Source: a virus
IMG/VR virus record: IMGVR_UViG_3300005529_000032
Coordinates: 1-64,000 of that record
Strand: one strand, 5' to 3'
Length of the DNA: 64,000 bases
The position numbers and the translations under genes are program-made. This document shows, piece after piece, positions 3,081 through 51,251 of the stretch; within the stretch, counting starts at the first letter, position 1, and every line of letters begins with the position of its first letter. The notes under the pieces were generated by a model, which was given only the letters and a program-made list of their open reading frames with translations, searched no databases and was not told the DNA's origin.

Positions 3081-3104
3081 TTACTGAGTATCGCTACTGA
3101 GTAG
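3081..3104. promoter_or_regulatory. Paired operator-like palindromes upstream of the 3052 gene
   Basis: TTACTGAGTA (centre 3086) and the perfect 11-base palindrome CTACTGAGTAG (centre 3099) lie 13 bp apart in the 73-bp gap upstream of a leftward structural gene. They belong to the CTACTNAGTAG family found at about ten other positions. A regulatory role is inferred from recurrence, spacing and intergenic placement. Confidence 0.65.
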
Positions 3105-3125
3105 AACGACACTTGTTCGAAAGTA

Positions 3126-3353
3126 TCACGCAAGCGCAGTGATGACGTCCCCTGGAACAGGAACCTGTCCAGGCAGGAAAACAATGATGCCGTTGGTGTA
3201 CACGCAATCGACCGTGAAGGTCATCAGTTGGCCGTTGCGGAAGACAAGCGCAGCCTGCAACCTGGGCAACGTGAACACCGTATTCTTGCCGTCAATGGTG
3301 CCCTGTATCGTTCCATTGACGCTCGAGTATTGCTGCGGAGGATTCTGCTTCAT
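3126..3353 (-). CDS. Small fibre-type domain protein, paralogous to the C-terminus of its neighbour
   Basis: A 75-residue protein, YSSVNGTIQGTIDGKNTVF followed by VFRNGQLMTFTVDCVYTNG, with a C-terminal PVPGDVITALA. It is essentially a stand-alone copy of the last 75 or so residues of the gene upstream (FSSVNGTITGTINGSNAVF, VYRNGQLLTSGTDY, PQPGDVLTAEAY). The two genes overlap by four bases (ATGA), so a tandem duplication is likely. The domain resembles short beta-structured tail or fibre modules in phage structural proteins; the precise role is unknown. Confidence 0.7.
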   Translation of the reverse strand: MKQNPPQQYSSVNGTIQGTIDGKNTVFTLPRLQAALVFRNGQLMTFTVDCVYTNGIIVFLPGQVPVPGDVITALA

Positions 3354-4330
3354 GAAGAGAAGTACGCCTCCGCCGTCAGCACGTCGCCCGGTTGTGGAAT
3401 CTGAATTCCTAAAAACGTGATCTGGTTGTTTAGGGAAGTGTAATCGGTGCCACTGGTCAGCAATTGCCCGTTGCGATAAACCGTCATGCTGGTGATGCCG
3501 CCGATAGTCAGCCAGAACACCGCATTGCTGCCGTTGATGGTGCCCGTGATGGTGCCGTTCACGCTCGAGAACTGGACCGGCATATTCGCCGCGGCGTTGA
3601 TGCCGGTGGTCCCGAGTTGCACACCGACGTAGGGAACCGCTCGCCGGACCGGGAACCGGTTGAACGCGGAATACGGTTTTGGCGCGATCTGGACCTTTTG
3701 CCGGGAGCGGACACGAGGAACCACAAGGCGATACAACTCTCCACCAATGACGCCATCCTCATAGCGCGAGCCAACGGCACGGATCATGCAGCGTTGCGCG
3801 ATCTCGTCATAGCCTTTGCGCTGCCCGGTCACACCGACGGCGAAGTTAGCGAGGAAGTTCAGCGCACCATCGACGGTAATCGTGGTGCTGTCGTTGGTCG
3901 GAGCGGTTCCGCTCGAGTCGTACTTGACCTGCAGGTCGATTGCCTGGGTAGCGGCCGTGAAGTTGAAGGTATCGTTCGCGTACATGAATACGCCGAGCCG
4001 GTCCGATGCTGGCCGGACCGGAAGACGCTCCACTGGGACGAGGTCGCGGTACTGGTCGGTTGAACCGTAAGGCCGCTCGGCCAGATAGATGTAATCGCCC
4101 CAGTCGCCTAGCCCTATTTGCGCCGGCGTCAGCGAGGTCGTCATAGGCGGCACAGTCACATTCGTCAGGAGCTCGATGCGAGGCACTTGATTCAGCAGGA
4201 ACGCCTGTAAGAGCGCGTCGTATGCTTCCCCGAACGCTTCCACGAAGACCGCTTCGGTGAAGACCTGCCCGGACGGATCATCCAGCAGGTTCTGCCAGCG
4301 TGTCTTTACCTGCAGCCGTGTTGGATACAT
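3350..4330 (-). CDS. Head-tail region structural protein with C-terminal fibre-type domain
   Basis: A 326-residue protein. The N-terminal third is helical (RLQVKTRWQNLLDDPSGQVF, then a segment running from EAFGEAYDALLQAFL) and looks like an adaptor or connector module. The middle (ATQAIDLQVKYDSSGTAP, TVDGALNFLANFAVGVTGQR) is mixed. The last 75 or so residues form the SSVNG...NGQLL...PGDVLTAEAY domain that is repeated as the next, separate gene. It sits between the zinc-ribbon protein and tail genes in the virion operon. A head-tail adaptor or tail-attachment role is inferred. Confidence 0.6.
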   Translation of the reverse strand: MYPTRLQVKTRWQNLLDDPSGQVFTEAVFVEAFGEAYDALLQAFLLNQVPRIELLTNVTVPPMTTSLTPAQIGLGDWGDYIYLAERPYGSTDQYRDLVPVERLPVRPASDRLGVFMYANDTFNFTAATQAIDLQVKYDSSGTAPTNDSTTITVDGALNFLANFAVGVTGQRKGYDEIAQRCMIRAVGSRYEDGVIGGELYRLVVPRVRSRQKVQIAPKPYSAFNRFPVRRAVPYVGVQLGTTGINAAANMPVQFSSVNGTITGTINGSNAVFWLTIGGITSMTVYRNGQLLTSGTDYTSLNNQITFLGIQIPQPGDVLTAEAYFSS

Positions 4331-4333
4331 CGA

Positions 4334-5101
4334 TTAGGAAAGAGCTTGCAGTTGTTCGCGTTCCATCTGAGCCCGTTGCTGCGCTTCCTTCTTAGCCGAA
4401 GCAAGCAGGGCCGTCCGCTGCACTTCGAGCCGCGCGTACTCCTCGAGATTGACAACCTCGTTGCAATGCGGACACTTAACGGCTTTTGCGGAAATGATCT
4501 TCGTGCAGTACGGGCAGGACCGCACGTTGACGGCAGAATTCTCATGTAGCCAGTCGGCGTCAAAGCCATAGAACCTCGCTCCGAGCCGCGCGACTTCCGG
4601 AATGAAAGGGATGAGCCGCTGGTCTTCGTTCGCGACGGCATTGGCGCGTGTGAAGTGCATCTGAGCATAGGCGTAGTTCGCCTGTTGCGCGGCTGCGAGA
4701 TCCTCTTCCCACATGGCGTCGAGTTCTTCCGGCGTCGCGTCGCGCCAGAGCGCACGTTGATCGGCATCGGTCTGCGGCGTTCCATCTTCATTCATCAGCG
4801 GGAGCCGCTCGCGGACTACCCAGATGCCCGGCCGGCACTGCGGGTTCATGCCGAGCCCGGACATGGTCCACTGTGAGACGAGATCCCGCGCGATACTCTC
4901 GCCGGTGATCTGGAACACATATCTCGCCCGGCGCCCGTTCGTGCCCAGAGAGTAAGGACCTTGTTCCACTTGGATACAGTCCTTAATCTCGACAATTACG
5001 GGCGGAGCTCCACGCTCGACGGCGGGAATCTCGTAAGGACCGCCGTAAGGTCTCTCGGCACGCACGGCAGCATAATAAATCGACGCAATCTTAGTCGTCA
5101 T
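4334..5101 (-). CDS. Virion-operon protein with C-terminal zinc ribbon
   Basis: A 255-residue protein. Residues 1-190 contain mixed blocks such as VERGAPPVIVEIKDCIQVEQ and ALWRDATPEELDAMWEEDLA. Near residue 200 are two knuckles, CPYC and CPHC, 12 residues apart: a rubredoxin-like zinc ribbon. It is followed by a charged helical tail rich in Gln/Arg/Glu. It overlaps the upstream gene by four bases. Zinc ribbons are unusual in head-tail proteins, and I do not recognise the family; a role in assembly or nucleic-acid contact is possible. Confidence 0.6.
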   Translation of the reverse strand: MTTKIASIYYAAVRAERPYGGPYEIPAVERGAPPVIVEIKDCIQVEQGPYSLGTNGRRARYVFQITGESIARDLVSQWTMSGLGMNPQCRPGIWVVRERLPLMNEDGTPQTDADQRALWRDATPEELDAMWEEDLAAAQQANYAYAQMHFTRANAVANEDQRLIPFIPEVARLGARFYGFDADWLHENSAVNVRSCPYCTKIISAKAVKCPHCNEVVNLEEYARLEVQRTALLASAKKEAQQRAQMEREQLQALS

Positions 5102-5580
5102 TCAAAGCCTCCGAAACTCACATGGCCGCCTCGCGAACCGGGTGAGGGATTAGAAAACGCGGGATTCTGGTCCTGCACATACTCGACCCACTCGAGCTCA
5201 TTGCGCTCTTTGTCGCGAGCAAGGTCATCTTCGACCGCAATCAGTTGCTCGGCAAATGTGGTGCTCATCTGCAGATCGATGACCCGGATGTAGTTCTGGG
5301 TCAAACGCTCATCCGGCACGTTGCCAGGGGAGAGCGCGGTTTCTGTGTGTGGGTGAAACATCCCTTCAGCGGGATATGGGTAGCGGCCGTCGAATTCGCG
5401 CGCCCACTGTTCCGGGCTCATGAGCGGTCGAATCCACTGGCACAGGACCCACACCCCGCCAAGACGGGTGCGCCAATACGGCAGATCGGGAGCCCACTGC
5501 CACGAGAAGCGCGGTTTTGTGCCCGCACAAACGTAACCAAGTGCGTCTCCCAGTCTGCGATTGAGTTGCTCAACGTGCAT
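5098..5580 (-). CDS. Phage protein of unknown function
   Basis: A 160-residue protein starting MHVEQLNRRLGDALGYVCAG, with several Trp residues (FSWQWAPDLPYWRTRLGGVW) and a conserved-looking helix FAEQLIAVEDDLARDKERNE. It overlaps both neighbours (TGATG at its start, ATGA at its end), so it is translated with the capsid-distal genes. The pattern resembles short proteins downstream of the major capsid gene in soil phages; the function is not known. Confidence 0.6.
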   Translation of the reverse strand: MHVEQLNRRLGDALGYVCAGTKPRFSWQWAPDLPYWRTRLGGVWVLCQWIRPLMSPEQWAREFDGRYPYPAEGMFHPHTETALSPGNVPDERLTQNYIRVIDLQMSTTFAEQLIAVEDDLARDKERNELEWVEYVQDQNPAFSNPSPGSRGGHVSFGGFE

Positions 5581-6173
5581 CAGGACTCAGGCTCTTCTTC
5601 TTGCTGCATCGGGCCGCCTTGCTGCTCCCGCGGTCCCCGCTGTTCCTGGTTCTGGTCCTGCGCCGCCTGCATGTGCCGTTTGTTGTAGGCGGCTATCTGC
5701 TGGTCTGCCTGATGACTGGCCTGTGCGATGTTCTGCGGCTCTTCTGCCGAGAGTTGCCTTTGGTTCGCCGGGGGTGGAACTTGTCCGGGAGACGTTCCGC
5801 CTTGGAGCTTCTGCCGGTTCCGGGTGTCGACATCGTCCTTGATCGTCGTTTCCCAGAGTTGCGCCTCCATGGCGCCGCCGCCGTCGAGCTTATTCCCGCC
5901 TCCGGCGAGGTCTTGCTCGTACTGCGCGAAGGCGTCGCTGATGCCGGCTGAGATGTACTCGCGAAGACGCTCTTTCTCGGGAAGGTGCCCGGAAACATCC
6001 CGGACATGGATTCCCTTGCGGAACCGGGTTTCATGGCCCGATGCCTGGTGCGTCTTTTCGGTGCGCTGATTGTCGGACAATTCTTCCCAGCGCTGACCCT
6101 GTGGTCCGCCGTGGGTCTCATCCAGTGCGGCAAGCGCCGCATGCGTCACTTTAGCTACTTGAGATTGATTCAA
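5580..6173 (-). CDS. Helical protein downstream of the capsid gene (possible RyR-like domain)
   Basis: A 197-residue protein. I chose TTG at 6173 as start because GGAGGG lies four bases upstream and the upstream capsid gene ends at 6187; earlier in-frame codons lie inside that gene. The N-terminal 50 residues (VAKVTHAALAALDETHG, W-E-L, N-Q-R) loosely resemble the RyR-type domain seen in phage proteins (a weak match by eye). The rest is Gln/Glu-rich and probably disordered, ending QQEEEPES. A minor capsid or internal head role is a guess from location. Confidence 0.55.
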   Translation of the reverse strand: MNQSQVAKVTHAALAALDETHGGPQGQRWEELSDNQRTEKTHQASGHETRFRKGIHVRDVSGHLPEKERLREYISAGISDAFAQYEQDLAGGGNKLDGGGAMEAQLWETTIKDDVDTRNRQKLQGGTSPGQVPPPANQRQLSAEEPQNIAQASHQADQQIAAYNKRHMQAAQDQNQEQRGPREQQGGPMQQEEEPES

Positions 6174-6186
6174 GAGTCCCTCCTGT

Positions 6187-7458: not shown

Positions 7459-7508
7459 TGTCTCCTTGACCCGCGCACGAGACGCGCGCTAGGTTCCTTC
7501 AGGCGCAC

Positions 7509-8966
7509 TTACCCGAGGAGTTGCTGGGCCTGCTTGACCGCTACTGCCGGATCGAACACGTTGTCTTTCATTTGGACGAGGTTATTCGGTGCGAGCGAGC
7601 GCGGCACAGTTCCACCTGAGCCCTTCGGTACGGTGCGGGTTTGCGCGGCTTGGCGCCGGGCGTGGTTTTGGTCGCTCCGCTCTTTCAACCGGGACGCGGC
7701 AAACTCGAGAATCGGCTTCTTTGCCGCCTCAACTGCGAGTTTCGCGCGATTAACATACGCCTGCTTAATTGCCGCGCCGATCTCGTCCCGTCTCTGTGCA
7801 GAGGCGGCCCGTTGGGCTTGGTCGTTAAGGAGTTGGATTTTTCGGCTGAATCCCTCATCGGCGCGAATGGTCTCGGTGACCTTCCTGTGCAGGCGGTCAA
7901 CGACGAGGTCATTGTAGTCGTTGGGGAAGTTCTTCCAGGCTTCAGCGACGCTGGCGAGAGCGGGTTTGATCGCCTCATCGAGAATACCTGTCCTCACGGT
8001 CTGAGAAACACCTTTATGCCAGGAGTCAAACTGTGCAGCTTGCTGGTTTCCGTTGTTTCCGTTCAGAAGAGAATTGAGTCGCGCGTTCTCAGCTTGCAGC
8101 CGCGCCACGTCGCCGCCCGCGTGCTGTCCCGCTAGGCCTGGCATTTCCTCTTTCTTGTAGAAGGGAATGCCCATGCGCTGAGTAATGCTGCGCACTTGCG
8201 CAATATCGCGGACATCTTTCGGGACGTTGGCAAGCGCTAAAGCAAAGTGTTGCGCTGATAGAAAAAGGCTTTCATCACCCTTCGCGGCCGCTTCCTCGAA
8301 CATCTCGCCGACGAGGTCCCGCGCCGCAGTGAACCGGAGCGTCGCGTACGCATCCGGAGCCTTCTCGCGAAGGGTTGTGTACATGCTCTGCGCGAAGGGA
8401 ATAGCTGGATCATTGCCGACTTCGCCTTGCTCGCGCGCCCGCTGCATTTCCTCGAGCACGTAATGGAGTACGCCGGCCTGGGTTCGCGGATCTCCGCTGT
8501 TCAGGTCGTTGAATAACCGCTCTTGCGCGATGTAAGCTTCATGATGCAGTTGTAGCGCCTCGAGCGTCGCCGGTTCCCCGATCATTTCCGAGGCTTTTTG
8601 AACAAGCTGGTGATTGCCGTAAATGGTCTTCCAGCGAGGCTCTTCGACGAACAGACCTTCTTTGCCCTGCCGGTTCTTGCCGCGGACTACGCCCTCGGGA
8701 AGCTCTTCCGGTTGTTCGGTGGTCTCGGGCCTCTTTTCCGGTTCGCCGGTTACTGGCTCTTCTTCGGTGGTCTCTTCGGTCTCTTCTCCCGCGGCCGGTT
8801 CTTCAACCGTCGTGTCCTCAACGGGCTCGGGAGTCTCGATAGTATCGCTTGTTTCAGTGCTGCTTTCAGGAGCTTCTGCGTTGTCGACGATGCCGTCGAA
8901 CAGGTCCGGAGGGGCCGTCGCTGCCAGATCGGCGCCGGACGTGATGGCTGGTGCTGGTTCTCCCAT
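7509..8966 (-). CDS. Capsid scaffold / head morphogenesis protein
   Basis: A 485-residue protein immediately upstream of the capsid gene. Residues 35-95 are an extremely acidic low-complexity run of Glu, Thr and Pro (for example EEPAAGEETEETTEEEPVTG). The rest is mainly helical with coiled-coil character (ARLQAENARLNSLLNGNNGN, RKIQLLNDQAQRAASAQRRD) and a basic C-terminal region rich in Arg/Lys/Gln. An acidic N-terminus with helical body and basic C-terminus is typical of scaffold proteins. There is no Shine-Dalgarno before the ATG; instead a 24-bp palindrome runs up to and includes the first base of the start codon. Confidence 0.75.
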   Translation of the reverse strand: MGEPAPAITSGADLAATAPPDLFDGIVDNAEAPESSTETSDTIETPEPVEDTTVEEPAAGEETEETTEEEPVTGEPEKRPETTEQPEELPEGVVRGKNRQGKEGLFVEEPRWKTIYGNHQLVQKASEMIGEPATLEALQLHHEAYIAQERLFNDLNSGDPRTQAGVLHYVLEEMQRAREQGEVGNDPAIPFAQSMYTTLREKAPDAYATLRFTAARDLVGEMFEEAAAKGDESLFLSAQHFALALANVPKDVRDIAQVRSITQRMGIPFYKKEEMPGLAGQHAGGDVARLQAENARLNSLLNGNNGNQQAAQFDSWHKGVSQTVRTGILDEAIKPALASVAEAWKNFPNDYNDLVVDRLHRKVTETIRADEGFSRKIQLLNDQAQRAASAQRRDEIGAAIKQAYVNRAKLAVEAAKKPILEFAASRLKERSDQNHARRQAAQTRTVPKGSGGTVPRSLAPNNLVQMKDNVFDPAVAVKQAQQLLG

Positions 8967-8989
8967 TACTAGGTAACGTTACCTAGTAA
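8966..8989. promoter_or_regulatory. 24-bp perfect palindrome abutting the scaffold start codon
   Basis: The core ACTAGGTAACGTTACCTAGT (8968-8987) extends two more paired bases on each side. It can be read as two sites, TTACTAGGTAA (centre 8971) and TTACCTAGTAA (centre 8984), 13 bp apart, as in the other operators. On the leftward strand a weak promoter (TTGCAA, 16 bases, TACAGT) lies just upstream at about 8994-9022. Any transcript would begin in or next to the palindrome. Confidence 0.7.
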
Positions 8990-9090
8990 GTACTGTACAC
9001 CAATATCAATAAGTTGCAACGATCTTCAATGGTTTAGGGGTTTGAAAAGCGTCGTTGCCGGAAGCACGTACGGGCTTCACAAAACGGCAA

Positions 9091-9113
9091 GGTCCCGGCT
9101 GCGAACCGGGACC
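9091..9113 (-). terminator. Stem-loop after the portal gene
   Basis: GGTCCCGG and CCGGGACC form an 8-bp GC-rich stem with a 7-base loop. On the leftward strand it is followed by TTGCCGTTTTGTG, a modest U-tract. A second short hairpin lies at about 9124-9145. Together they could separate portal transcription from the promoter of the scaffold-capsid operon. Confidence 0.55.
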
Positions 9114-9118
9114 CTGTA

Positions 9119-9250: not shown

Positions 9251-9264
9251 TGTACTAAAAATTA

Positions 9265-11628
9265 CTACTGGACCGGACCGGCGGGAGGCGGACCGGCTAC
9301 ACCGTTCGGCAAAGGCGGTATCGGCGAGGCTTGTTGTACGGGCGATGGTCCGACCGGTGGTGTCGGCGCTCCCATGTCCGGAGGTCCCGGAGGTCCTGCC
9401 GGAGCGGGAGGTGCTGCCGATTGCTGTTCGGGAGGTAACCCGGCGCCCTGCAACACCTCGTTCATAAGCTGCGGGAAGTCTTCGAGCTTCGCGCTGAGGG
9501 CCAAGTTCGCCTTGACTGGTGGAGGCGGAGGTGGAGGCGGAGGCGTTGCGAGTGCCTGATGGGCCTGCCAGAATGCTTGTACGTTCTGAAACCCTTGCGG
9601 ATTTGAGTTCCGCGCGTCGCGACCGGGCTTCGAAATCATCCACGTCGCGACCACGGCAACGACAAGCGTATGGTTGTCGAACGGGTCAGGCGGCATGGAC
9701 GGCTGCGGCTCGCCCGGAGATCCATCGGGTCCCGGTTGCCCTGGCATCGGAGGTTCGGCGAGGAGTTGCTCGATGTCCGAAAGAGTCTTTTCTTTCTGGT
9801 CGCGCAGAGCAGATTCGAATCCGGGTACTTGGATGAGCTCGAAAACCTCTTCGATGTTGAGTGGGTCGAGTACGGAGAGGGCTTGCTGCACCTCCGGAGG
9901 GAAGTCTTTAAGCAGGCTGAACACCGCATCCCGACGGTCGCTCAACGTCATTGGGAAGTCGTCGTTCGCTTCAACGTGCCATCCGGACTCGCGCAGTTGC
10001 GCCATGTCCGCAATGTCGGTTGCGCGGCCGTATGCAGTCTGACGCCGTGCGGTCACAGTTCCGCAGCCATACTTGGCGCGCAACTTCACGAGGATAGTCG
10101 CCATCTCCTCGGATGCGATACGCATTTCTTCAGCCTGTGGGGCAAGCTGCATGAGCGCCTGATCCCGGCGTTGTTTCGCTTCGCGGTAAGTCTGCGTTGG
10201 TTGGCCGCCGCCCGAGAGCTCGGGCCGGATGCCCGTGATGTCCTGCATGAGCGTGCGCGCCTGAGTCAGGAAAGGTAAAACCTGATCGCCCAGACGTGCC
10301 GGCGGAATCTGGAAGACACGCTTTGCGATATCGCCATCGACCGGCATCGCCGTCGGGATCAGCTCGTCCGGAACTGCCCGATTGGTGCTTGCCGCTTTGC
10401 GGTCTAATAACTGAGCGTCGAAAATCGTCCGCGTGATCGCCCGCAGGACCGTCTCGAGGGCCATCCCGAAGAGATCGTCAATAGCGCGCTGAATCGGAAC
10501 GGAGTCTCCGGCTATCGGCTTCTCGTGAATTTTCTCGCTGCGTCCCACGCGGCAAACGGTCCACTCATTCTCGACCGCCTGATTGTCGATCTTGCAGGTT
10601 TTTGAGCCAACACGGGCGATATACAGTCCGTCCGAGAACTGGGCTTTAAAAACGGCGCGAGCCTCGGCGTCTTGAATCGCCTCGAACAGGTACGTTGGAA
10701 TCCAGTACTCAGCATGGCGCCAATGGTTGTGCGGCTTGGCTTTCCCTGTGCCCGACGGATTTGTGACGGCGTCCCGCGCTTCCTGTGCTGCGTTGCTCGA
10801 GGCGGAGTAGTCATCGTCCGGAACATCCCCGTCCCGATACTCGTCGAGTGGACCCGGTTGTCCGGCTTGGCCTTTGTACTGCGCGAGCAGCGACCACTTG
10901 GGACGCATCACCTCAAGCCGGAGCGGATTGTTGCGCAACTCCTCGGCTTCATAGGGAATGCTGACTTCCAGAATCGAATAAACCTGGATCTGCGCGTCGC
11001 CATTGGCGTAGGTTGTCGTTCCAGTGACCACTGGCATCGGGGTTCCGTCCGGTGCCATCTGGATCTCAACTTGCGGCTCGCTGGTCTGTCCGTACTTCTT
11101 GGCGTCGGTATCCCAATAGCAGCGGATGAAAGCGGGCCCGGTCACATACTGATGAAACGCGAGTGCTTTCCACTTGCGATCAATCTTGGCCTTGGTCCAG
11201 ATGTCGCGCACTTGGACGTCGGCATTCTGCGACATCTCGAAATCGTCGCTATTGCCCTCCATGTCGGGTACAGCCTTAACGCGCGGTGCGTTCTGGCCCA
11301 TGACCGCCATGTACTTGTAAAGATCTCCGCCGATCACGTTGATTGGAGGAGTCAGTTGGACGGCCGCGCCATTCTCCGAGTCTGCGGAGATGTCGAACGG
11401 AATGTAATCGATGATGTCGCCATAGCCGGAAGTGACCTGCCCTGGGACGGCGAAGTGATTCCCTTTGACGAACTGCCAATTCAGCCGGGCCTGATTGACG
11501 TGGATCTGCCGCTCCATCTCATACGCGTTGTCCAGTGCTGCTTTGATCAGTTGCGTGAGCACGCTATCGTAGTGTCGAATGATCTCATCGTTCGACAACG
11601 CCGCAGGGGCTGGGCCGACTATCTCCAC
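9265..11628 (-). CDS. Portal protein
   Basis: A 787-residue protein in the portal position between terminase/fibre genes and scaffold. Blocks such as RQIHVNQARLNWQFVKGNHF, VIGGDLYKYMAVMGQNAPRV, LMQDITGIRPELSGGGQPT and YREAKQRRDQALMQLAPQAE are the clip-stem-wing type helices of large portal proteins of short-tailed phages (P22-like size). The last 150 residues are a disordered Pro/Gly/Gln-rich tail including nine consecutive prolines. Portal subunits form the dodecameric ring for DNA packaging and ejection. The protein abuts the upstream coiled-coil gene by one base. Confidence 0.85.
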   Translation of the reverse strand: MEIVGPAPAALSNDEIIRHYDSVLTQLIKAALDNAYEMERQIHVNQARLNWQFVKGNHFAVPGQVTSGYGDIIDYIPFDISADSENGAAVQLTPPINVIGGDLYKYMAVMGQNAPRVKAVPDMEGNSDDFEMSQNADVQVRDIWTKAKIDRKWKALAFHQYVTGPAFIRCYWDTDAKKYGQTSEPQVEIQMAPDGTPMPVVTGTTTYANGDAQIQVYSILEVSIPYEAEELRNNPLRLEVMRPKWSLLAQYKGQAGQPGPLDEYRDGDVPDDDYSASSNAAQEARDAVTNPSGTGKAKPHNHWRHAEYWIPTYLFEAIQDAEARAVFKAQFSDGLYIARVGSKTCKIDNQAVENEWTVCRVGRSEKIHEKPIAGDSVPIQRAIDDLFGMALETVLRAITRTIFDAQLLDRKAASTNRAVPDELIPTAMPVDGDIAKRVFQIPPARLGDQVLPFLTQARTLMQDITGIRPELSGGGQPTQTYREAKQRRDQALMQLAPQAEEMRIASEEMATILVKLRAKYGCGTVTARRQTAYGRATDIADMAQLRESGWHVEANDDFPMTLSDRRDAVFSLLKDFPPEVQQALSVLDPLNIEEVFELIQVPGFESALRDQKEKTLSDIEQLLAEPPMPGQPGPDGSPGEPQPSMPPDPFDNHTLVVAVVATWMISKPGRDARNSNPQGFQNVQAFWQAHQALATPPPPPPPPPVKANLALSAKLEDFPQLMNEVLQGAGLPPEQQSAAPPAPAGPPGPPDMGAPTPPVGPSPVQQASPIPPLPNGVAGPPPAGPVQ

Positions 11629-12078: not shown

Positions 12079-12340
12079 CGTTGCTGGTGTCTACGTCGCT
12101 GGTCTGATCATTGCCGCCCAACTGGTCACTTAGCTGCGAAAGCACGGCTTGCAACGTGCTTGCCTGGTCGGGCGTAAGCCGGAGCGTGATATCTCCGGTG
12201 TCGGTTCCGTCCTCGCTCGAGGCCGGATTGTCCTGTGTCGCGGAAGGACCGAGACTCTGTTTCGCTGGTGGCGCAGAGGACGCGCTGAAATCCGAAGGCG
12301 CGTCGAGATCGGTCGCAGTCTTAGAACGTGGCATTGCCAT
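12008..12340 (-). CDS. Small acidic/disordered protein
   Basis: A 110-residue low-complexity protein rich in Ser, Asp, Pro and Gln, with one structured helix in the middle (LTPDQASTLQAVLSQLSDQL). GGAGGG precedes ATG 12340 by about 11 bases and directly touches an upstream operator site. It heads the portal transcript. Function unknown. Confidence 0.55.
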   Translation of the reverse strand: MAMPRSKTATDLDAPSDFSASSAPPAKQSLGPSATQDNPASSEDGTDTGDITLRLTPDQASTLQAVLSQLSDQLGGNDQTSDVDTSNDEDDYPLAPAAGPPARSRGGYGS

Positions 12341-12356: not shown

Positions 12357-12380
12357 CTACTAGGTGCAGTTACTCAGTAG
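12357..12380. promoter_or_regulatory. Paired operator-like sites upstream of the portal operon
   Basis: CTACTAGGTGC (centre 12362) and TTACTCAGTAG (centre 12375) are 13 bp apart. The first touches the ribosome-binding site of the gene starting at 12340. They belong to the CTACTNAGTAG family. Confidence 0.65.
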
Positions 12381-12386
12381 CGTACA

Positions 12387-23315: not shown

Positions 23316-23651
23316 CTACGTCGTCGGTGTCGGCGGAGTCTGTGTGCTCCCCTGGCCGCTCAAACTCTGCGTCTCGGCGTCGACGCGCGCCTGCAGGTTG
23401 TTAATGTCGCTGACCACCGACTCGATATCGGCGTCACTCGTGCCGCTCTGCGCCGATGCCAACTTGTTTGCGATAGCCGTGAGCTCGTTGCTGATGCTCG
23501 CTCCCATGCTGGCTACGCTGTGCTTGAGGTCGTCTAGTGCTGCCATGATTTGCTCCTGTGTTTTGTCGAGAGTGTCGAACCGGGGAAAGAGCTCAGATCG
23601 CAGCAGGTTGCGGATAAACCGCTCCCAACTCGACCATCCTATTCCCATCAT
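23316..23651 (-). CDS. Coiled-coil protein at the head of the structural operon
   Basis: A 111-residue protein. Residues 28-70 form amphipathic helix/coiled coil (DKTQEQIMAALDDLKHSVAS) and the C-terminus is Thr/Pro-rich. It is the first gene after an operator-like site (23676-23686) and so may lead the late operon. No strong ribosome-binding site is visible. Comparable small coiled-coil proteins occur in many phages; function unknown. Confidence 0.55.
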   Translation of the reverse strand: MMGIGWSSWERFIRNLLRSELFPRFDTLDKTQEQIMAALDDLKHSVASMGASISNELTAIANKLASAQSGTSDADIESVVSDINNLQARVDAETQSLSGQGSTQTPPTPTT

Positions 23652-23675: not shown

Positions 23676-23686
23676 CTACTTAGTAA
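23676..23686. promoter_or_regulatory. Operator-like palindrome upstream of the late operon
   Basis: CTACTTAGTAA (centre 23681) is flanked on both sides by GTACCTTA copies (23662 and 23689). These lie one operator spacing away in either direction within a base or so. It sits in the gap between the DUF3309-like gene and the next leftward gene. Confidence 0.55.
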
Positions 23687-27708: not shown

Positions 27709-27760
27709 CTACTCAGTAGGGCTACGCAACCGAAATCTACCTAGTAGGCTTACCGAGTAG
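27709..27760. promoter_or_regulatory. Cluster of three operator-like palindromes and leftward promoter
   Basis: CTACTCAGTAG (centre 27714, perfect apart from its middle base), CTACCTAGTAG (27742) and TTACCGAGTAG (27755). The last two are 13 bp apart, and a weaker half-site CTACG lies near 27722. On the leftward strand TATACT (about 27700-27705) follows the first site and TTGCGT precedes it by 19 bases. The palindrome would therefore sit between -35 and -10 of a promoter for the primase operon. Confidence 0.7.
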
Positions 27761-29384: not shown

Positions 29385-29501
29385 AAACCTTCCTCCGAGT
29401 CCAGAATAACTCACCTAGCGAGTATATGCAATGGTTTGGTATGGTCTTTCCTCGGAAAATTTCCGGCCTTGCCGCCTGCCTGGATTGGGATGGCCTTGGC
29501 C

Positions 29502-29821
29502 CGTGAACAGCGTGCACGGCTCTGTGTACAGTGTCAGGCCGTCATTCTGGGACTGTTCACAGGTCGTAACCCGTTGTGTCTCCTACTACTTATCTCTTCT
29601 GTGAACAGTGTGAACAGTATAAAGGAATAAAAGTATATAGTAGGTGGGCATAATGTAATAGCAAATAGGTATATAAGAGGAGAAGGATAGAAACTGCGGT
29701 ACACACTGCACACACTGTGCACAGACGCACTAAGTGCCTTTGGAATCAATGATTTAGCCTGTGAACAGTCTGTGAACAGTAAGGTGTGAACAGTCTCGAA
29801 AGACCGTTGGGACCGTTCACA
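29502..29821. repeat. Iteron-like repeats around an AT-rich segment (candidate origin)
   Basis: TGTGAACAGT or close variants occur at 29502 (CGTGAACAGC), 29600, 29609, 29760, 29771 and 29785. Inverted copies lie at 29552 (ACTGTTCACA) and 29812 (ACCGTTCACA). TGTGTACAGT at 29523 and CACTGTGCACAG at about 29714 are more divergent. Between the groups, 29618-29690 is strongly AT-rich (TATAAAGGAATAAAAGTATA is typical) in a GC-rich genome. Repeats flanking an AT-rich unwinding zone fit a replication origin; a terminase pac/cos site is the main alternative. No gene is visible in 29385-29946. Confidence 0.65.
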
Positions 29822-33697: not shown

Positions 33698-33944
33698 ACT
33701 GGTCTCCAAGCAGGCTCGTGGTGGTTTCGGCGGAGTAGTTGACGGTCAATGGCAGGGCTCCGATGAGGATGCCGGACCCACTACGGACGGGAGACTCGAG
33801 GAAGAGGCCGACGGACTGGGTCGAATCGGCGGAGATGGGAGAGGCGAGGGCGACGCGGGCGTAGGACCACTCCGGGTCACCGACGAGGCGGATGCGGATA
33901 CGGTCGCCTTGCTCGAGCGGCACAGGGAGCATGGGAGTGGGCAT
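33675..33944 (-). CDS. Small beta-rich protein
   Basis: An 89-residue protein with strands DRIRIRLVGDPEWSYARVAL, SVGLFLESPVRSGSGILIGA and LTVNYSAETTTSLLGDQYEI. A small beta-barrel is likely. Function unknown. Confidence 0.5.
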   Translation of the reverse strand: MPTPMLPVPLEQGDRIRIRLVGDPEWSYARVALASPISADSTQSVGLFLESPVRSGSGILIGALPLTVNYSAETTTSLLGDQYEIEVRA

Positions 33945-38727: not shown

Positions 38728-39084
38728 TTAAACAAACTCCCAGTCGACCATGGCATTATCTGTAAGCGCGAGCGCGTGCCACACACACTCGCCGAGGTCG
38801 ATGCCGGCGCTATTTGTTCCGCACCCAGAGACACTGATGCCGCGTTCTGCAGCCGGCCGGGCACCGTCGAAGACATAGGCATCATCTTCAGTATTCCAAG
38901 GTCCAACATCGAGGACCGTTGCAGTGCAAGTTTTCCCATTTTCCGGATTGGTGAGCCGGACGCACCGGTGCAGCGCCCGCACGGAGGGGAGGGCCACGAA
39001 CGGAGTCGTGACGTCGATGACCCAGCCGGTCGCAGTGCGTTTCCCGACTAGGCCTTCTCGCGTAGCTTTCACGCGCATGGCCAC
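38728..39084 (-). CDS. RlpA-like double-psi beta-barrel protein
   Basis: A 118-residue protein with the conserved core CTATVLDVGPWNTEDDAYVF, RPAAERGISVSG, TNSAGIDLGECVWHALALTD and DNAMVDWEF. This pattern (VxDVGPWN...P.AE.G...NxAGIDL...VxWEF) is a double-psi barrel family found in phages, related to RlpA/expansin-type wall-active folds. No signal peptide. Lysis or cell-wall role inferred. Divergent promoter region with operator sites lies upstream. Confidence 0.7.
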   Translation of the reverse strand: MAMRVKATREGLVGKRTATGWVIDVTTPFVALPSVRALHRCVRLTNPENGKTCTATVLDVGPWNTEDDAYVFDGARPAAERGISVSGCGTNSAGIDLGECVWHALALTDNAMVDWEFV

Positions 39085-39085: not shown

Positions 39086-39158
39086 TAGTACCCCCACTCA
39101 GTAAGTGCGCTGTCCCGGAGATTTCTCGGTGTCGTTACTTAGTAGGACTTTCAGGTAC
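39086..39158. promoter_or_regulatory. Operator-like sites in the divergent RlpA-like/serine recombinase promoter
   Basis: CCACTCAGTAA (centre 39099) has a half-site AGTAC one 13-bp step away (centre 39086). TTACTTAGTAG (centre 39140) has GGTAC one step on (centre 39153). The region separates the leftward lysis-like pair from the rightward recombinase and could control both. It could also hold the recombinase's crossover site. Confidence 0.6.
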
Positions 39159-39211: not shown

Positions 39212-39985
39212 ATGAAGGCACCAGAGCAGCGAAAGCGGGCGGTTGGCTATTGCCGCGTAAGTACAAAGAAGCAGGACATCAGTTTAGAGGCGCAGGAAGA
39301 GCAAATCCGGGCCATGGCGGTCGTAAAAGGCTGGGATTTGGTCGACATGAAGATCGATCGGGACGAATTTTCGGGCGATTTGGACCGTCCAGGGCTCGAA
39401 GAAGTGCTCGAAATGGTCAAAAATCAGGCCATCGACGCCGTTATTTTCGCGAAATTGGACCGTCTGAGCCGGTCGACGCGAGATGTCATTTTGCTGATGG
39501 ATTTGTTCAACAAAAAGGGCGTTGGACTGGTGAGTTTAGCCGAAAATCTGGACACAAAGAGCTCCATGGGGCGGTTTTTTGTGCGCATGATTGCGTCGCT
39601 CGCGGAGCTCGAGCGCGAGATGATCGGGGACCGGACCAGAACAGGCATGCAGCACCTGATCAAGCTCGGAATGCCGACTGGGAACCCGCGGTACGGCTTT
39701 CGCGCACAGCAGAAGAACCGGCATTTGCCCCTGAGCGAGAAGAAGCCCGTGGTGCCCGAGCCCGTGGAGCAGGAGATTGTCCAACTGGTCCACGAGTTGC
39801 GCCGCCAGGGTTATAAACTGCGCGAGATCGCAGACAAATTAAACGAACGAGGCTTCAAAACGCGCGTCCGCGGCAAGATCGGCGGCAAGCCGTTCCGGCT
39901 GCAGTATGTGGATCGCATTTTAAAGTTAGAGCAGGCCGTTTTTGCTCGCCCAGATGGTGAGTCCAGCGACGCTCTTCACGCCTAA
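39212..39985 (+). CDS. Serine recombinase (resolvase/invertase family)
   Basis: A 257-residue protein. VGYCRVSTKKQDISLEAQEE contains catalytic Ser17. AVIFAKLDRLSRSTRDV carries the conserved LDRLSRS arginines. SSMGRFFVRMIASLAELERE and MIGDRTRTGM follow as in the E-helix region. A C-terminal helix-turn-helix (GYKLREIADKLNERGFKTR) is last. Size fits small resolvases rather than large serine integrases. It may resolve multimers or invert a segment; the phage also has a tyrosine integrase. The 3' end overlaps the convergent LuxR-type gene by 60 bases. Confidence 0.85.
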   Translation: MKAPEQRKRAVGYCRVSTKKQDISLEAQEEQIRAMAVVKGWDLVDMKIDRDEFSGDLDRPGLEEVLEMVKNQAIDAVIFAKLDRLSRSTRDVILLMDLFNKKGVGLVSLAENLDTKSSMGRFFVRMIASLAELEREMIGDRTRTGMQHLIKLGMPTGNPRYGFRAQQKNRHLPLSEKKPVVPEPVEQEIVQLVHELRRQGYKLREIADKLNERGFKTRVRGKIGGKPFRLQYVDRILKLEQAVFARPDGESSDALHA

Positions 39986-40204
39986 CCTCTCACTGATGAC
40001 TTTGCGGTGAAACTCGACCGTGCGCCGGCTGATCTCGAGCTCGTCGCCGATCTCGGAGGAGGTCATACCGAGGGCAACCATGCGGACGATTTGCCGCTGG
40101 TGGTCGGTGAGCTCGCGGCGGATGGGTTGACCGCAGTGGGGGCAGAACTCACGGGCGGCCTTTTTCTTTTTCGGGGGAGCGGACTTCTTCGTAGTAGTGG
40201 GCAT
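39926..40204 (-). CDS. LuxR-type HTH regulator with N-terminal zinc knuckle
   Basis: A 92-residue protein. A Lys-rich N-terminus (KKSAPPKKKKAAREF) and a CPHCGQPIRR knuckle lead into a full LuxR/FixJ-type DNA-binding domain: LTDHQRQIVRMVALGMTSSE, then IGDELEISRRTVEFHRKVIS and ERLGVKSVAGLTI. There is no receiver or ligand domain. Four phased operator-like sites sit directly upstream, so it is probably autoregulated or controlled by the phage regulator. Confidence 0.75.
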   Translation of the reverse strand: MPTTTKKSAPPKKKKAAREFCPHCGQPIRRELTDHQRQIVRMVALGMTSSEIGDELEISRRTVEFHRKVISERLGVKSVAGLTIWASKNGLL

Positions 40205-40253
40205 TGCTAGGTAGTCCTACGAAGCAATCTTACTACTTTTGACTACCAAGTAA
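40204..40253. promoter_or_regulatory. Array of four operator-like sites at exact 13-bp spacing
   Basis: TTGCTAGGTAG (centre 40209), CTACGAAGCAA (40222), TTACTACTTTT (40235, left half only) and CTACCAAGTAA (40248). The centres are 13, 13 and 13 bp apart. The array starts at the start codon of the LuxR-type gene and would cover its promoter. Confidence 0.75.
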
Positions 40254-40466: not shown

Positions 40467-40516
40467 TTTGCCTCCGGAGCAAAAGGTCGGTGGTTCGAAT
40501 CCACTCGGGCGTACCA
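40467..40516 (+). other. attP core: 3' half of a tRNA-Arg(CCG) gene
   Basis: The segment folds as the anticodon arm (TTTGC CTCCGGA GCAAA, anticodon CCG at 40474-40476). It continues with variable loop AGGTC, T arm (GGTGG TTCGAAT CCACT), 3' acceptor strand CGGGCGT, discriminator A and CCA. No D arm or matching 5' acceptor strand (ACGCCCG) lies upstream, so it is only half a tRNA. Tyrosine-integrase phages commonly carry the 3' half of the target tRNA as attP, and the integrase gene begins 66 bases away. Confidence 0.85.
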
Positions 40517-40578
40517 CAAAAAGTAGTCAATAACCCTTTTAATTCAAACAGTTTGCCGCGTTGGGCCGTAGTGTGGGT

Positions 40579-40589
40579 GTACTTAGTAG
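40579..40589. promoter_or_regulatory. Single operator-like site at the integrase stop
   Basis: GTACTTAGTAG (centre 40584) overlaps the integrase stop codon between the gene and attP. No second site is visible one 13-bp step away. It may affect attP architecture or be a stray family member. Confidence 0.4.
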
Positions 40590-41944
40590 GTTTCATTAGA
40601 TTTCAACCGATTTTGACCCTTTTGGACCCTCGAGGTGCCCCAAAAGGTGCCCCTGGGGCACCCTGGGGCACCCCCTTCAGAGACCAGATTTCCGTCTTCG
40701 AAGGTGATGAGCATCTCTTCCAGAACCGAAGACGCTTGCCGCTTGTTCGAGAACCATTCCATGCCGCGGTCCATGTCTTCCTGGGAGGGGTGGATGTACT
40801 TGTTCAGCATGGCGAGGTCGGTGTGTCCGAGGATCTTCGAGAGGACGGGCAGTTGACCTCCAGCGAGGGCGTACCGGGTTGCGAAAGTGTGCCGCATGTC
40901 GTATAGCCGGCAGGTTATCCCGCATCCGCCGACTCGAGCTCCTTGGCTGTTCGGTCGGCCGCGGGTCGCTCGCTCGTGCGACTTCTGAAGGGTGGTTCGC
41001 GGTCCATCGTTTTTCGGGGAAGGGAACACCCAAAGGCCGGGTGTTGAAAGGCGCCGGGCAAAGATCCGGAATGTGGTCTCAGTCATCCTCAGTTTGCGGT
41101 GTGCGCCCTTCGACTTTCCCTCCGAGCTACTGTCCCAGATCGTGAAGTGGCGGTTGAATAGGTCCACATGACTTTGCTGCAGGGACATGATTTCGTCAGG
41201 ACGTGGGCCCTGCTCGAGCATGATTGTGGCAACATCAAATAGGTCGGTGCTTTCCTGCCTAGCGGCGGTTAGATATCTGGCCTCCTCGTCTGGCGACAGG
41301 ACTCTCATTGCAGTGGAGTCCTGTTCGCTTGGGATCTTCACCTCGATATCCTCACCCCGCGCAAAAGGATCTCCGGCGATCCAACCATTCTTCCGCGCAT
41401 AGGCGCAAAAGCTGCGGATAATGAGCAGTTGTTTATGTAGCGTATTGTCGTGAATGCCACTCTCGCGACGCCACATTTTGAAGCGTTCCAACTCGCCCGG
41501 CGTCAGCCGATTTAAGGGCAATCGGAGCTTTTCCAAATAGAATTGGAAGGAAGCCATTAGGGAAGCCTGCCATTTGCATTTCCCACCCCGAGGGTGTTCG
41601 CTGCGATACCAAGCATTAAACTCAGAAATCGCCCGGTCAATTGGCATACTCATCTGCCGCACAACCGTCTTTCCCTGAATAATGCTCTGCTTGTGGGCTT
41701 CTTTGAGAGCCTGCGCTTTAAGAATGTTTTCGGGTACGGCCGCCAAATCGGTTGTTACGGAGTAAGGCACTCCGTTCACTTTGAATCGGTAGCGCCACTT
41801 CCCTCTGTGGTTCTCGAGGCCGAGGAGCGTCGGTGGTCTGGACGCTTTCTCTTGCGTAGCGCTCGACTTCGTAGTCGGGGTATCGGACGGCACCGCCGAT
41901 CTTTGCAAAGGCCGGGCCTTTCCGCCTTGATCTCCAGTTAGCAA
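40583..41944 (-). CDS. int: Tyrosine integrase
   Basis: A 453-residue protein from TTG 41944 (GGAG seven bases upstream). The N-terminal 95 residues carry an arm-binding-type domain (LENHRGKWRYRFKVNGVPYS). A SAM-like core-binding domain spans about 100-200. The catalytic domain has EQGPRPDEIMSL (Arg248), CRLYDMRHTFATRY (YDMR near 348-351, Tyr in place of the usual first His), KILGHTDL (His374) and Tyr383 in LNKYIHPS. The last 30 residues lie over arm-type repeats. It integrates phage DNA at tRNA-Arg(CCG). Confidence 0.9.
   Translation of the reverse strand: MLTGDQGGKARPLQRSAVPSDTPTTKSSATQEKASRPPTLLGLENHRGKWRYRFKVNGVPYSVTTDLAAVPENILKAQALKEAHKQSIIQGKTVVRQMSMPIDRAISEFNAWYRSEHPRGGKCKWQASLMASFQFYLEKLRLPLNRLTPGELERFKMWRRESGIHDNTLHKQLLIIRSFCAYARKNGWIAGDPFARGEDIEVKIPSEQDSTAMRVLSPDEEARYLTAARQESTDLFDVATIMLEQGPRPDEIMSLQQSHVDLFNRHFTIWDSSSEGKSKGAHRKLRMTETTFRIFARRLSTPGLWVFPSPKNDGPRTTLQKSHERATRGRPNSQGARVGGCGITCRLYDMRHTFATRYALAGGQLPVLSKILGHTDLAMLNKYIHPSQEDMDRGMEWFSNKRQASSVLEEMLITFEDGNLVSEGGAPGCPRGTFWGTSRVQKGQNRLKSNETY
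40634..40653 (+). repeat. Putative integrase arm-type repeat, right copy
   Basis: It is identical to 40388-40407 and followed by two inverted copies of the same octamer (GGGGCACC at 40655 and 40665). The cluster lies inside the 3' end of the integrase gene, which constrains coding (GGAPGCPRGTFWGT). Confidence 0.55.
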
Positions 41945-42147: not shown

Positions 42148-42169
42148 GGCGCTTACGATACCATAAGCG

Positions 42170-43159: not shown

Positions 43160-43160
43160 G

Positions 43161-43728: not shown

Positions 43729-43857
43729 GATGCTCCTTTCAATGTCCGGTTGGTTCGTGGCTGCAAACCGTTCCCATTCGATTGCAGCGTCGAGGAAGCG
43801 GTCAACGCCGCCCGCTCTCGTCACGATCTGTTTCACGCTTTCCACTGCTTCGGTCTT

Positions 43858-45303: not shown

Positions 45304-45331
45304 GCTTACTCCCTTACAAGCTGAATCGTGG

Positions 45332-47127: not shown

Positions 47128-47129
47128 GG

Positions 47130-48461: not shown

Positions 48462-49774
48462 TAGAACAAGTCACCATCCTTTGGTCCGGCTGGCGGAGGT
48501 GCTTGCGGAGGCGGCGGCGTGGTTGCAGGCTCTTCGTCCACCTTCTTATTCGCCGTCCGGCGTTGCTGCAACTTATCGGCGAGATCTTGCGTTTTCGCGT
48601 TGGTCGCGTTCGCCGCGGAAGCAGATGGCCCGGAGGGATTGGCTGCGGGTGACTGGGGAGTTTGAGGAGCAGACTCCTCCGCAGGTCCCTCCGGATAAAA
48701 CTCGTCCGACATCGCTTGCGCGCTGAAGGGCGTGTCTTCGTCGTCTTCGACGTAAGCAGGTTCGGCTGAAGCTTCGATCATCCGGCGCGGCGGCGTCGGC
48801 TCGGCAATTTGCCGGAACTTCCACGCCTGTTCGATGAGGTTCTTGCGCAGTGACTCTATGTCTTCGGCTCGGAACTCGAGGCTGACTCCATACTGCGTCG
48901 CCGGCTGCCCGTTGTGTTTCGTCTTGTAGGCCCGGAGGACCATTTTGAGAGGAATTCCAGCAAGGCGGCCTCCAGTGAGGGCTTTAATTCGCTCAATGCT
49001 GCTAAAGATCTGGGTGATGGACCGGATTCCAGACGTATGAAAATATGCAGTCCCACCGACACGTATGTTTTTCGCCAGTTGAAACTTGAGATCTCCGCCT
49101 GGGTGACATGGACTCGGAAGGGTGCGTCCCCGGTCGTCGACGGACTCTTGACTGAAGGGGCATCCGCAGGTCCAGCACCCGTCGATGATGGGGAAATGTT
49201 TTTCGCCACGCTGTTTCGCCTCCTCTACTAACTGTTTGTCCTGCGCCGTGTCCGCCATCGACAACACGCGCATTGCGTTGACGCCGTCGCCTTTACACTT
49301 CAGTTCCGACGAGCTCCACATCTGGTAAGCGCCGTTGAACGGGTTGTCATCGAGAAAGACAACGTCAATCTCGGTCGGCATGATGCCGTGCGCCTCGATC
49401 GCTTCAAAGTCGGGTTCAAAAATCTCCGTGCCGTCCTGTTGCAACACGGGCCGCGTGAAAGTGAAAAACCCGATCTTGCGCGGGTAGTTCACCATCTCGG
49501 CTTTCGCGTAGTTGTCGTGGTAGAACTGTTCGGCTTCTTTGCGGGTCTTGAGCTTCCCGACCGTTTTGAATTCGATCTTGTTGTCACCCTTGACGGCCAT
49601 GCGGAAGTACCAGAGACCGTCGTTGTGAATCCAGCAATTCAGTCCCCGGCCGCGCGGTAGACCAATACCCACCTTCAAAATTTTTGCTTCCCGCAAAATG
49701 AGGCTCCCATCCGGTTCGTGCGTAATGCCGAACATCACTCCAGGGATGGGCCGCTTACCTGCTATCTGCAACAT
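48461..49774 (-). CDS. gp3-like recombination directionality factor family protein
   Basis: A 437-residue protein. LREAKILKVGIGLPRGRGLN, HFPIIDGCWTCGCPFS, NIRVGGTAYFHTSGIRSITQ, LTGGRLAGIPLKMVLRAYKT and GQPATQYGVSLEFRAEDIES match the gp3-like family (phiC31 gp3). Its members act both in replication/recombination and as directionality factors for serine integrases. The last 110 residues are Pro/Ala-rich and acidic, ending GDLF like SSB-type tails. Whether it partners the serine recombinase at 39.2 kb is unknown. Confidence 0.7.
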   Translation of the reverse strand: MLQIAGKRPIPGVMFGITHEPDGSLILREAKILKVGIGLPRGRGLNCWIHNDGLWYFRMAVKGDNKIEFKTVGKLKTRKEAEQFYHDNYAKAEMVNYPRKIGFFTFTRPVLQQDGTEIFEPDFEAIEAHGIMPTEIDVVFLDDNPFNGAYQMWSSSELKCKGDGVNAMRVLSMADTAQDKQLVEEAKQRGEKHFPIIDGCWTCGCPFSQESVDDRGRTLPSPCHPGGDLKFQLAKNIRVGGTAYFHTSGIRSITQIFSSIERIKALTGGRLAGIPLKMVLRAYKTKHNGQPATQYGVSLEFRAEDIESLRKNLIEQAWKFRQIAEPTPPRRMIEASAEPAYVEDDEDTPFSAQAMSDEFYPEGPAEESAPQTPQSPAANPSGPSASAANATNAKTQDLADKLQQRRTANKKVDEEPATTPPPPQAPPPAGPKDGDLF

Positions 49775-49954
49775 TTATACGCGCTCCTCATAGATCTCGA
49801 TCAATCTCTCTTCCTGTTCATCGGTGATCCATGACTCCGCTTTCCAGCGACGACGGACCGACTCCATAAACTTCTGTTCCTCTTCCGTCAGGTCCTTGCC
49901 GTCGCCGGTGAGGCTGTCAATCATGGACTGAATCACGTTTTTCGGTTCGGTCAT
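49775..49954 (-). CDS. 59-residue helical protein
   Basis: MTEPKNVIQSMIDSLTGDGK, DLTEEEQKFMESVRRRWKAE, SWITDEQEERLIEIYEERV: a small acidic helical protein. It overlaps the exonuclease end (TGATGA) and its stop TAA touches the next ATG, so it is firmly embedded in the operon. Function unknown. Confidence 0.65.
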   Translation of the reverse strand: MTEPKNVIQSMIDSLTGDGKDLTEEEQKFMESVRRRWKAESWITDEQEERLIEIYEERV

Positions 49955-51000
49955 CAGTAAACTCGCAGTGGCCTTGATTCGACTGCTTTTTTAAAGGTGT
50001 CCGCGGGTAGAAATTCCTGCTCGAACTTGTGCTTCGCCTGCCAGAGTTCGGGATGTTTCGCAATGGCATCGATCAGCATGTTCCGTAAACGGTCGTGCTC
50101 GGATGCGAGGAAAGCGAAATCGCCTCGCATGGCAACCTGCGGACGGAAGTACACCTTATGTCCGGCCACCTCGAGTTGCTCGCGAGCGCCGATGCGGGTC
50201 TTGAGCTCTTCCTTGGCGTCCTCGACCAACTGTTCCGCTTCGTCCAGGAGCTTTTTACGCTCGAGGTACTCGGTCAGCAATGGGCGCAGTGTTTCATCGC
50301 GCTCCAGGCCCTTATTGCTACCGGCCTCGACCTGGATGAGCGCAGCACCTTGGCAGGATTTGCGGTATTGGCACTTTTGGCAGCGGCTATCATCCGGCTC
50401 GAGACGGTCCGGGATATCACCGCTTTGGACTTGCCGCCAGAATGCGCGGTCTTCCGCGACGATCAGATCCGCCAGAACACTGTCGCGGTCGACGTCCCAG
50501 TGCAGCAGTTCGCCGCTATCGCGCGAGCCAATGCCGTACGAGCCCCATGGCGTTCCCGCGACTACCATGCCGTGCTGTAGCTGCAGGATGTAATCTTCCG
50601 GCAATCCCTCGCGCTTGATCTTGTAGAACACCGCGCGGCCCACGGCTTTGAGCTCGAGCACGCCTGGCTGATCGCGGTTGCTGTCATCGACCATGCGGTC
50701 GACATTCACCCGCAATTCCGGATATTCGGGATGAATGAGCGGCTCGGGCCGGACATCGACGAGGCGGCCTGTCATCTGCGCGTACTTCTCCCCGAAGAAA
50801 GGCTCGAGATAAGCGCCGAGCGCTATCGCGTCGTTCTCCGGCTCCGGATAATCTGGCGGGACGTTGCGCTTGTCATAGAACAGCCTGCGCCGGCATCCGT
50901 ATCCGACGTTGAAGACGGAAGCAACGTCCGAGCCTCCAACGCCTTTCTTCCGCTCGGCGAGAAAAACGGAGCGATCAATTTGGGGCTTCTCGTTCATCAT
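49954..51000 (-). CDS. YqaJ-family exonuclease
   Basis: A 348-residue protein. RKKGVGGSDVASVFNVGYGC, AIALGAYLEPFFGEKYAQMT, NVDRMVDDSN, GVLELKAVGRAVFYKIKREG and YILQLQHGMVVAGTPWGSYG are the lambda-exonuclease/YqaJ core (Asp in NVDRM, Glu/Lys in LELKA). SRCQKCQYRKSCQG forms a Cys cluster, possibly iron-sulfur, followed by coiled coil. It resects DNA ends for annealing-type recombination. It is the second gene of the leftward early operon. Confidence 0.85.
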   Translation of the reverse strand: MMNEKPQIDRSVFLAERKKGVGGSDVASVFNVGYGCRRRLFYDKRNVPPDYPEPENDAIALGAYLEPFFGEKYAQMTGRLVDVRPEPLIHPEYPELRVNVDRMVDDSNRDQPGVLELKAVGRAVFYKIKREGLPEDYILQLQHGMVVAGTPWGSYGIGSRDSGELLHWDVDRDSVLADLIVAEDRAFWRQVQSGDIPDRLEPDDSRCQKCQYRKSCQGAALIQVEAGSNKGLERDETLRPLLTEYLERKKLLDEAEQLVEDAKEELKTRIGAREQLEVAGHKVYFRPQVAMRGDFAFLASEHDRLRNMLIDAIAKHPELWQAKHKFEQEFLPADTFKKAVESRPLRVY

Positions 51001-51198
51001 TTAGCGTGCGACTGCCTTTGATGGGGGTTTGCGGTCCGGGTTGCTCTCGCGATGTTGCCGGACGAAGTTCACGAGGGCCCTGCGCATGATGGCGGACCGG
51101 GTTTGTTCTTCCTCGATAGAGATCTTGTCGATCTCATCCACCAAGTCCACCTTGAGCTTGAGGCTTATGTTGAGCTTTTCATTGTTTGCTGCGGCCAC
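51001..51198 (-). CDS. Ribbon-helix-helix DNA-binding protein
   Basis: A 65-residue protein from GTG 51198 (AGGAGG seven bases upstream). EKLNISLKLKVDLVDEIDKI is the ribbon plus helix A. SIEEEQTRSAIMRRALVNFV is the turn and helix B with the usual 'xTRSxxxRxAL'. A basic C-terminal tail follows. It belongs to the Arc/CopG/ParG-type superfamily, whose dimers bind short repeated sites cooperatively. It heads the recombination operon with operator sites just upstream, so autoregulation is likely; it is the best candidate reader of the 13-bp-phased family. Confidence 0.75.
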   Translation of the reverse strand: MAAANNEKLNISLKLKVDLVDEIDKISIEEEQTRSAIMRRALVNFVRQHRESNPDRKPPSKAVAR

Positions 51199-51212
51199 CG
51201 TGCTACCTCCTA

Positions 51213-51251
51213 TTACTAAGTAGTCATACTGACTGTAATCGTACTACGGGT
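51213..51251. promoter_or_regulatory. Operator-like sites upstream of the ribbon-helix-helix gene
   Basis: TTACTAAGTAG (centre 51218), ATACTGACTGT (51231, left half only, 13 bp away) and GTACTACGGGT (51246, 15 bp further). On the leftward strand TTGCCT, 16 bases and TACGAT give a possible promoter overlapped by these sites. Confidence 0.65.

Follow-up and report, generated by a model that had tools for sequence, protein, structure and literature searches.

The closest described systems are RelB with its operator relO as regards architecture, SvtR as regards a ribbon-helix-helix (RHH) protein acting at several viral promoters, and MrpR with its SPBRE sites as regards dispersal over promoters. 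In Escherichia coli, the operator of the RHH protein RelB is made of two abutting 12-bp palindromes that stretch from -10 to +17, and no changed spacing is tolerated (PMC2812701). The RelB-RelE system shares with the phage discussed in this article, hereafter phage A, palindromic sites of about 12 bp that lie side by side and each take a dimer, strict spacing, and an RHH autoregulator, which in phage A is a candidate (PMC2812701). However, relO serves a single promoter and has a toxin partner, whereas in phage A the pitch is 13 bp, many promoters carry sites, and no toxin is seen beside the RHH gene. SvtR, from the archaeal virus SIRV1, is likewise a small RHH protein binding its own and other viral promoters, that of a structural gene included, but it reads another sequence, its virus is archaeal, and it has only four known sites (PMC5569661). 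In the prophage SPbeta, one repressor, MrpR, recognizes a short motif (SPBRE) that recurs at many promoters of this temperate phage; it differs by its tyrosine-recombinase fold and 15-bp motif, and the accessible part of that account mentions no 13-bp pairs (PMC10516654). Many copies of one repressor site are also spread across the temperate genomes of Cluster A (L5-type) mycobacteriophages (PMC6550527). These “stoperators” are asymmetric, lie mostly in one orientation relative to transcription, some of them in downstream genes, and stop elongation (PMC6550527, PMC9283540); they are 13 bp long and are read by a two-domain monomeric repressor (PMC9283540). Finally, omega of plasmid pSM19035 is an RHH ParB protein with tandem arrays over several promoters, but its parS repeats are non-palindromic, 7 bp long, and serve plasmid partition together with ParA (PMC9499535).

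What, then, is read in phage A, and by which protein? Dispersed phage operators are of a known kind; what is new is the RHH protein proposed as their reader. The short list of phage repressors known so far to work from dispersed sites includes the Cluster A repressors and MrpR. P1 C1 also belongs there: its operators are scattered over the phage genome and control dispersed operons, as is proposed for phage A, but these sites are asymmetric and 17 bp long, and C1 is not an RHH protein.

The window analysed here covers positions 1-64000 of a virus record 70,593 bases long and encodes a temperate tailed phage, whose relatives are designated by letters. Phage A encodes an integrase (40583-41944), RecE-like recombination, terminase, portal and capsid genes, as well as a Cro/CI-type helix-turn-helix protein, and the majority of its genes run leftward. 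Neither a near DNA relative nor a homologue of its capsid was found in the named-phage collection. The record appears to be circularly permuted, with the operon that starts at 3052 resuming at 70491, since in the gene order of relative B the virion genes run into a giant protein of 4,250 residues. The corresponding gene of the virion operon, about 4,250 codons long, extends from window position 52542 to L001:5300 and is kept in B at about 62%. A tRNA-like 3′ end, spotted by eye at about 40480-40518, adjoins the integrase gene; ARAGORN found no tRNA there, and the region 40480-40590 may be the attachment site.

The candidate operator, CTACTNAGTAG, frequently paired at a distance of 13 bases, heads nearly every operon of phage A and of a relative. 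Palindromes were counted for all 4-bp half-sites with spacers of 0-6, in a genome that is 87-90% coding. Among all 4+4 palindromes of the 70.6-kb record, TACTN1AGTA ranks first by intergenic copies (7 of 8). A 9-point consensus score was then fixed on YTACTNAGTAR, with a block-wise Markov shuffle as background: 20 matches reach at least 8 of 9, against 1.6 ± 1.3 expected, and 15 of them are intergenic (0.23 ± 0.44 expected), chiefly at operon heads. All six perfect-score matches are intergenic, where 0.01 would be expected, and a reversed control pattern gives 0 matches vs. 8 for the true one. A lag of 13 bp ranks first among 35 (best-side score 6.1, next 4.25), with a permutation p of 5e-5 that is post hoc in phage A. 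The sequence-only reading had named an intergenic excess and a 13-bp peak relative to shuffled sequence as signs in its favour, and both are found in A and in B. Its statement that the sites occur almost only in gaps holds for the strong ones, but 5 of the 20 matches lie inside genes. The literature searched does not contain this motif as a described operator.

At every position previously listed a site exists, although the clusters differ in quality. A pair centred at 3086/3099 and 13 bp apart (3081-3104) stands 5′ of the virion operon that runs leftward from 3052, with a B site at 39772. The pair at 8971/8984 (8966-8989) abuts the start of gene 7509-8966 in the capsid operon and forms one perfect 24-bp palindrome; its B counterpart, at 33888, is likewise 13 bp apart, and here the letters differ (TTACTAGGTAA-CG-TTACCTAGTAA in A vs. 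CTAGCTAGTAA-CA-TTACTAGCCAC in B) while the dyads and the distance are the same. The portal operon, which begins at 12340, is preceded by the pair 12362/12375 (12357-12380), matched in B at 29389 with a partner at +13. A single operator at 23681 (23676-23686) precedes 23316-23546 and the terminase/tail operon (B site 23429, which precedes a phage-lysozyme gene), and three centred at 27714, 27742 and 27755 (27709-27760) precede the helicase/methylase operon (B site 19900). Two more, at 39099 and 39140 (39094-39145), are found between the leftward gene 38728-39084 and the rightward resolvase gene 39212-39985. The region 40204-40253 precedes the GerE gene described below, before whose B orthologue AGTA-N4-TACT occurs at 9447, and the pair 51218/51231 (51213-51236; B site 63811) overlaps the RHH gene's leader and its likely promoter. 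Spacing of 13 bp “nearly every time” was thus too strong a wording: 13 bp is the best lag overall, but two distances depart from it, 28 bp for 27714/27742 and 41 bp for 39099/39140. In the proposed array at 40209-40248, 40248 is strong and fits the consensus and 40209 does so weakly, but 40222 and 40235 are poor; among the listed pairs, 12362 and 51231 are only weak members. Operons of all classes do carry sites, as had been said, except that a lysis operon is not shown in the window, 38728-39084 having no assigned family. A further GTACTTAGTAG match at 40584, at the end of the integrase gene and near the tRNA-like 3′ sequence, was left out of the operator set.

The likeness to L5-type stoperators that had been suggested is one of number and spread and does not extend to details. 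The phage A consensus is palindromic, so that orientation is undefined, and the sites sit at operon heads near likely -10/+1 positions rather than being scattered within operons. These features point to promoter operators and not to stoperators. At those promoters for which a guess can be made, the first site (8984, 12375, 23681 and 51231 in A; 23429, 29389 and 33888 in B) has a TANNNT-like hexamer directly 5′ of it, all of these being weak promoter calls.

Relative B (67,457 bases), whose capsid protein is 82% identical to that of A, took no part in the definition of the motif, and most of its proteins are only about 40-80% identical to those of A. All six of its matches scoring at least 8 are intergenic (0.30 ± 0.54 expected), and 13 is again the top distance of 35 lags (score 4.57, next 3.93; permutation p = 0.00015, independent of the motif definition). 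Seven of the eight clusters recur in B before orthologues, namely those of 2594-3052, 7509-8966, the portal operon, the 23.5-kb genes, the helicase operon, the GerE gene and the RHH gene. The word CCTAGTA, taken from B's own RHH promoter, is intergenic in all 9 of its copies in B (p = 4e-8), and an additional B site at 7868 precedes an integrase-like gene (Phage_integrase slightly under the cut-off). Conservation in relatives, another point raised by the sequence-only reading, is seen in B, but it does not reach C, D, I, J, K, M, N and O (the second and the last three being fragments), in which no such site family is seen; some of their capsids are up to 77% identical.

Three phage proteins were weighed as possible readers. 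The first gene of the recombination operon (51001-51198, minus strand) encodes a 65-residue RHH (CopG) protein that scores 31.4 bits with Pfam RHH_1 (cut-off 20.5) and matches a PHROG transcriptional repressor at 5e-6. Its orthologue in B, 48% identical over 42 residues, reaches 18.2, just under that cut-off, and in both phages the gene has sites in front. Directly downstream lies a RecE/YqaJ-like exonuclease gene (49954-51000, minus strand). With an RHH domain, tandem palindromic sites at fixed pitch and a site in its own putative promoter, the protein has the features of an RHH repressor as judged from sequence, which supports the earlier suggestion of the 51.0-kb protein as reader. It does not look like a RelB/DinJ antitoxin, the next gene being the exonuclease and no toxin gene being seen beside it. 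The predicted structure, a single long helix built on a two-sequence alignment, is not usable, and a search for homologues in named phages gave nothing convincing.

The most probable reading, to which a probability of roughly 0.6 may be given, is that the sites are the operators of a dispersed regulon bound by this RHH protein as a genome-wide repressor. That one phage protein works through dispersed sites, as the sequence-only reading had it, agrees with sites that head all operon classes and recur at orthologous places in B. The 92-residue zinc-ribbon and GerE (LuxR-type) protein encoded at 39926-40204 (minus strand; Pfam GerE 7e-15, well over the cut-off) could be a target regulator, or else a rival that reads the sites itself, as an activator or repressor of all operons that also regulates its own gene. 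The latter is unlikely, even though the protein is kept in B (39%) with sites in front of its gene in both phages. Both the RHH and the GerE gene are conserved in the same two phages that have the site family, and co-occurrence cannot separate them; the main site before the RHH gene is however good in A and B, while the sites before the GerE gene are poor and form the weakest set. A GerE activator would moreover not usually have its sites at -10/+1, the dyads that GerE dimers recognize are as a rule longer, and no GerE homologue was found at any of the 34 loci with 13-bp pairs described below. Direct searches of viral contigs found homologues of neither protein. The RHH protein is thus the best candidate and would be favoured over GerE because of the 13-bp pairs at antitoxin genes, the RelB-like architecture and the better site before its own gene. 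The Cro/CI-type protein (52270-52581, plus strand) might have been the master repressor with the sites as its operators, given its good HTH_3 domain and the place of its gene in a divergent region of the kind usual for immunity. It falls away because it is absent from B, which keeps sites at orthologous promoters, and the rightward genes have another palindrome array in front (ACTAGT, 51406-51470); this role is very unlikely.

Could the phage instead be tapping into a host network, with a host regulator reading the sites? The occurrence of the same motif in unrelated genomes and in an unrelated phage fragment speaks for it, but the close relatives C, D, I and M have no sites, and in phage A these head every operon class, two phage regulator genes included, which makes a host reader quite improbable as well. 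Partition sites are another conceivable function, the RHH protein being ParB-like and the arrays centromere copies laid over promoters as with omega of pSM19035, since RHH ParB proteins also regulate promoters via such arrays (PMC9499535). However, phage A has an integrase, most clusters consist of one or two sites, and no ParA is seen among the annotated genes of phage A, of which part was scanned, so that this explanation is exceedingly improbable.

When 257 billion bases were scanned for site pairs with the 13-bp distance, 34 loci came up. Three of them lie just 5′ of RelB-like antitoxin genes, in Gardnerella, a Lachnospiraceae genome and Aminicella, so that antitoxin operons of three bacterial genera begin with 13-bp-phased TACTNAGTA. 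The Gardnerella locus has one more site in the same register, and in the Gardnerella and Lachnospiraceae loci a YafQ toxin gene follows the antitoxin (Pfam YafQ 1e-34; TIGR00053). These antitoxins are mutually homologous, and the three loci therefore count as about one independent case. They have no RHH score in Pfam, and profile comparison with the phage RHH protein gave nothing significant; their YafQ partner suggests the RHH type, together with a low-confidence model (pLDDT 57, not informative). In the order of Aminicella, a search for additional homologues returned only the antitoxin itself and two weak partial matches. About 22 of the 34 loci are of another kind. They belong to proteobacteria, many of them Methylococcaceae, and carry a longer perfect palindrome built on TTACTGAGTAA-AT-TTACTCAGTAA (L023, L025, L026, L028, L031, L032, L036-L042, L044, L045, L047-L049, L051, L052, L054, L055), often just 5′ of an ORF starting like MNYQRPQEELLKSRLSE.

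How would such a protein act? By analogy with RelB, the architecture would be that of an RHH operator repeated at many promoters. A homodimer of the 51001-51198 protein would insert its beta-ribbon into each TACTNAGTA palindrome, and adjacent dimers on sites 13 bp apart would bind cooperatively, the first covering -10 to about +5 and the second the next 13 bp. In each operon the sites coincide with the likely -10 element or follow it immediately, so that the bound protein would block the start of transcription, and repression of initiation is the simplest reading of their placement. The protein would repress its own recombination operon, those of the capsid, portal, terminase/tail, helicase/methylase and GerE genes, and the one at 39 kb. 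It would do so either in lysogeny or in the early phase: its gene heads an early-type operon, which fits an early regulator, and the breadth of its targets fits a lysogeny repressor. We infer the binder, the cooperativity, the repressive effect and the timing from the arrangement of sites and genes. If this is true, a very small RHH protein joins the few repressors known to govern an entire phage genome through dispersed sites, and a defined operator code (TACTNAGTA at a 13-bp pitch) becomes searchable in other uncultured phages.

Against this model, an RHH-like gene is also the first of the recombination operon in K, I and G433, in which no family of sites across the genome was found. That locus is common to them and to A and B, whereas the site family is common only to A and B; tblastn found no orthologue of the RHH gene in C, D, I, J, K, M, N and O (four of them the fragments named above), and no repeated genome-wide motif stood out in the K or I genomes from the words of their RHH promoters. 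Outside A and B, either the specificity has drifted past recognition or the regulon is particular to these two phages. One may tentatively go further, with the balance somewhat against it, and suppose that in this lineage of tailed temperate phages one 65-residue RHH protein, encoded by the first gene of the recombination operon, is a genome-wide master repressor acting via RelB-style phased operators at essentially every operon, its specificity redrawn between lineages while the gene stays in place.

Other repeats were seen in the window and in the collection. In the two Olsenella loci L024 and L043 (genomes G016 and G335), several inverted TACTAAGTA-N4-TACTTAGTA pairs occur, four of them exact in each genome, which suggests a chromosomal regulon or a repeat element of the group. 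An unrelated AT-rich phage fragment (40% GC) has about five TACTNAGTA-like sites at L020:6980-7110; they form two groups, each keeping the 13-bp register, and lie after a TATAAT-like box and before a terminase gene; no regulator was recognized on that fragment. In phage A, the irregularly spaced ACTAGT palindromes clustered at 51406-51470 lie 5′ of two rightward genes, 51521-52087 and 52270-52581, are absent from B, and look like the operator region of a second regulator. The ORF-poor stretch 29501-29797 contains seven TGTGAACAGT-type repeats (CTGTNNACAG, 6 of 7 intergenic), which may mark a replication origin or else be operators arrayed for a different regulator.
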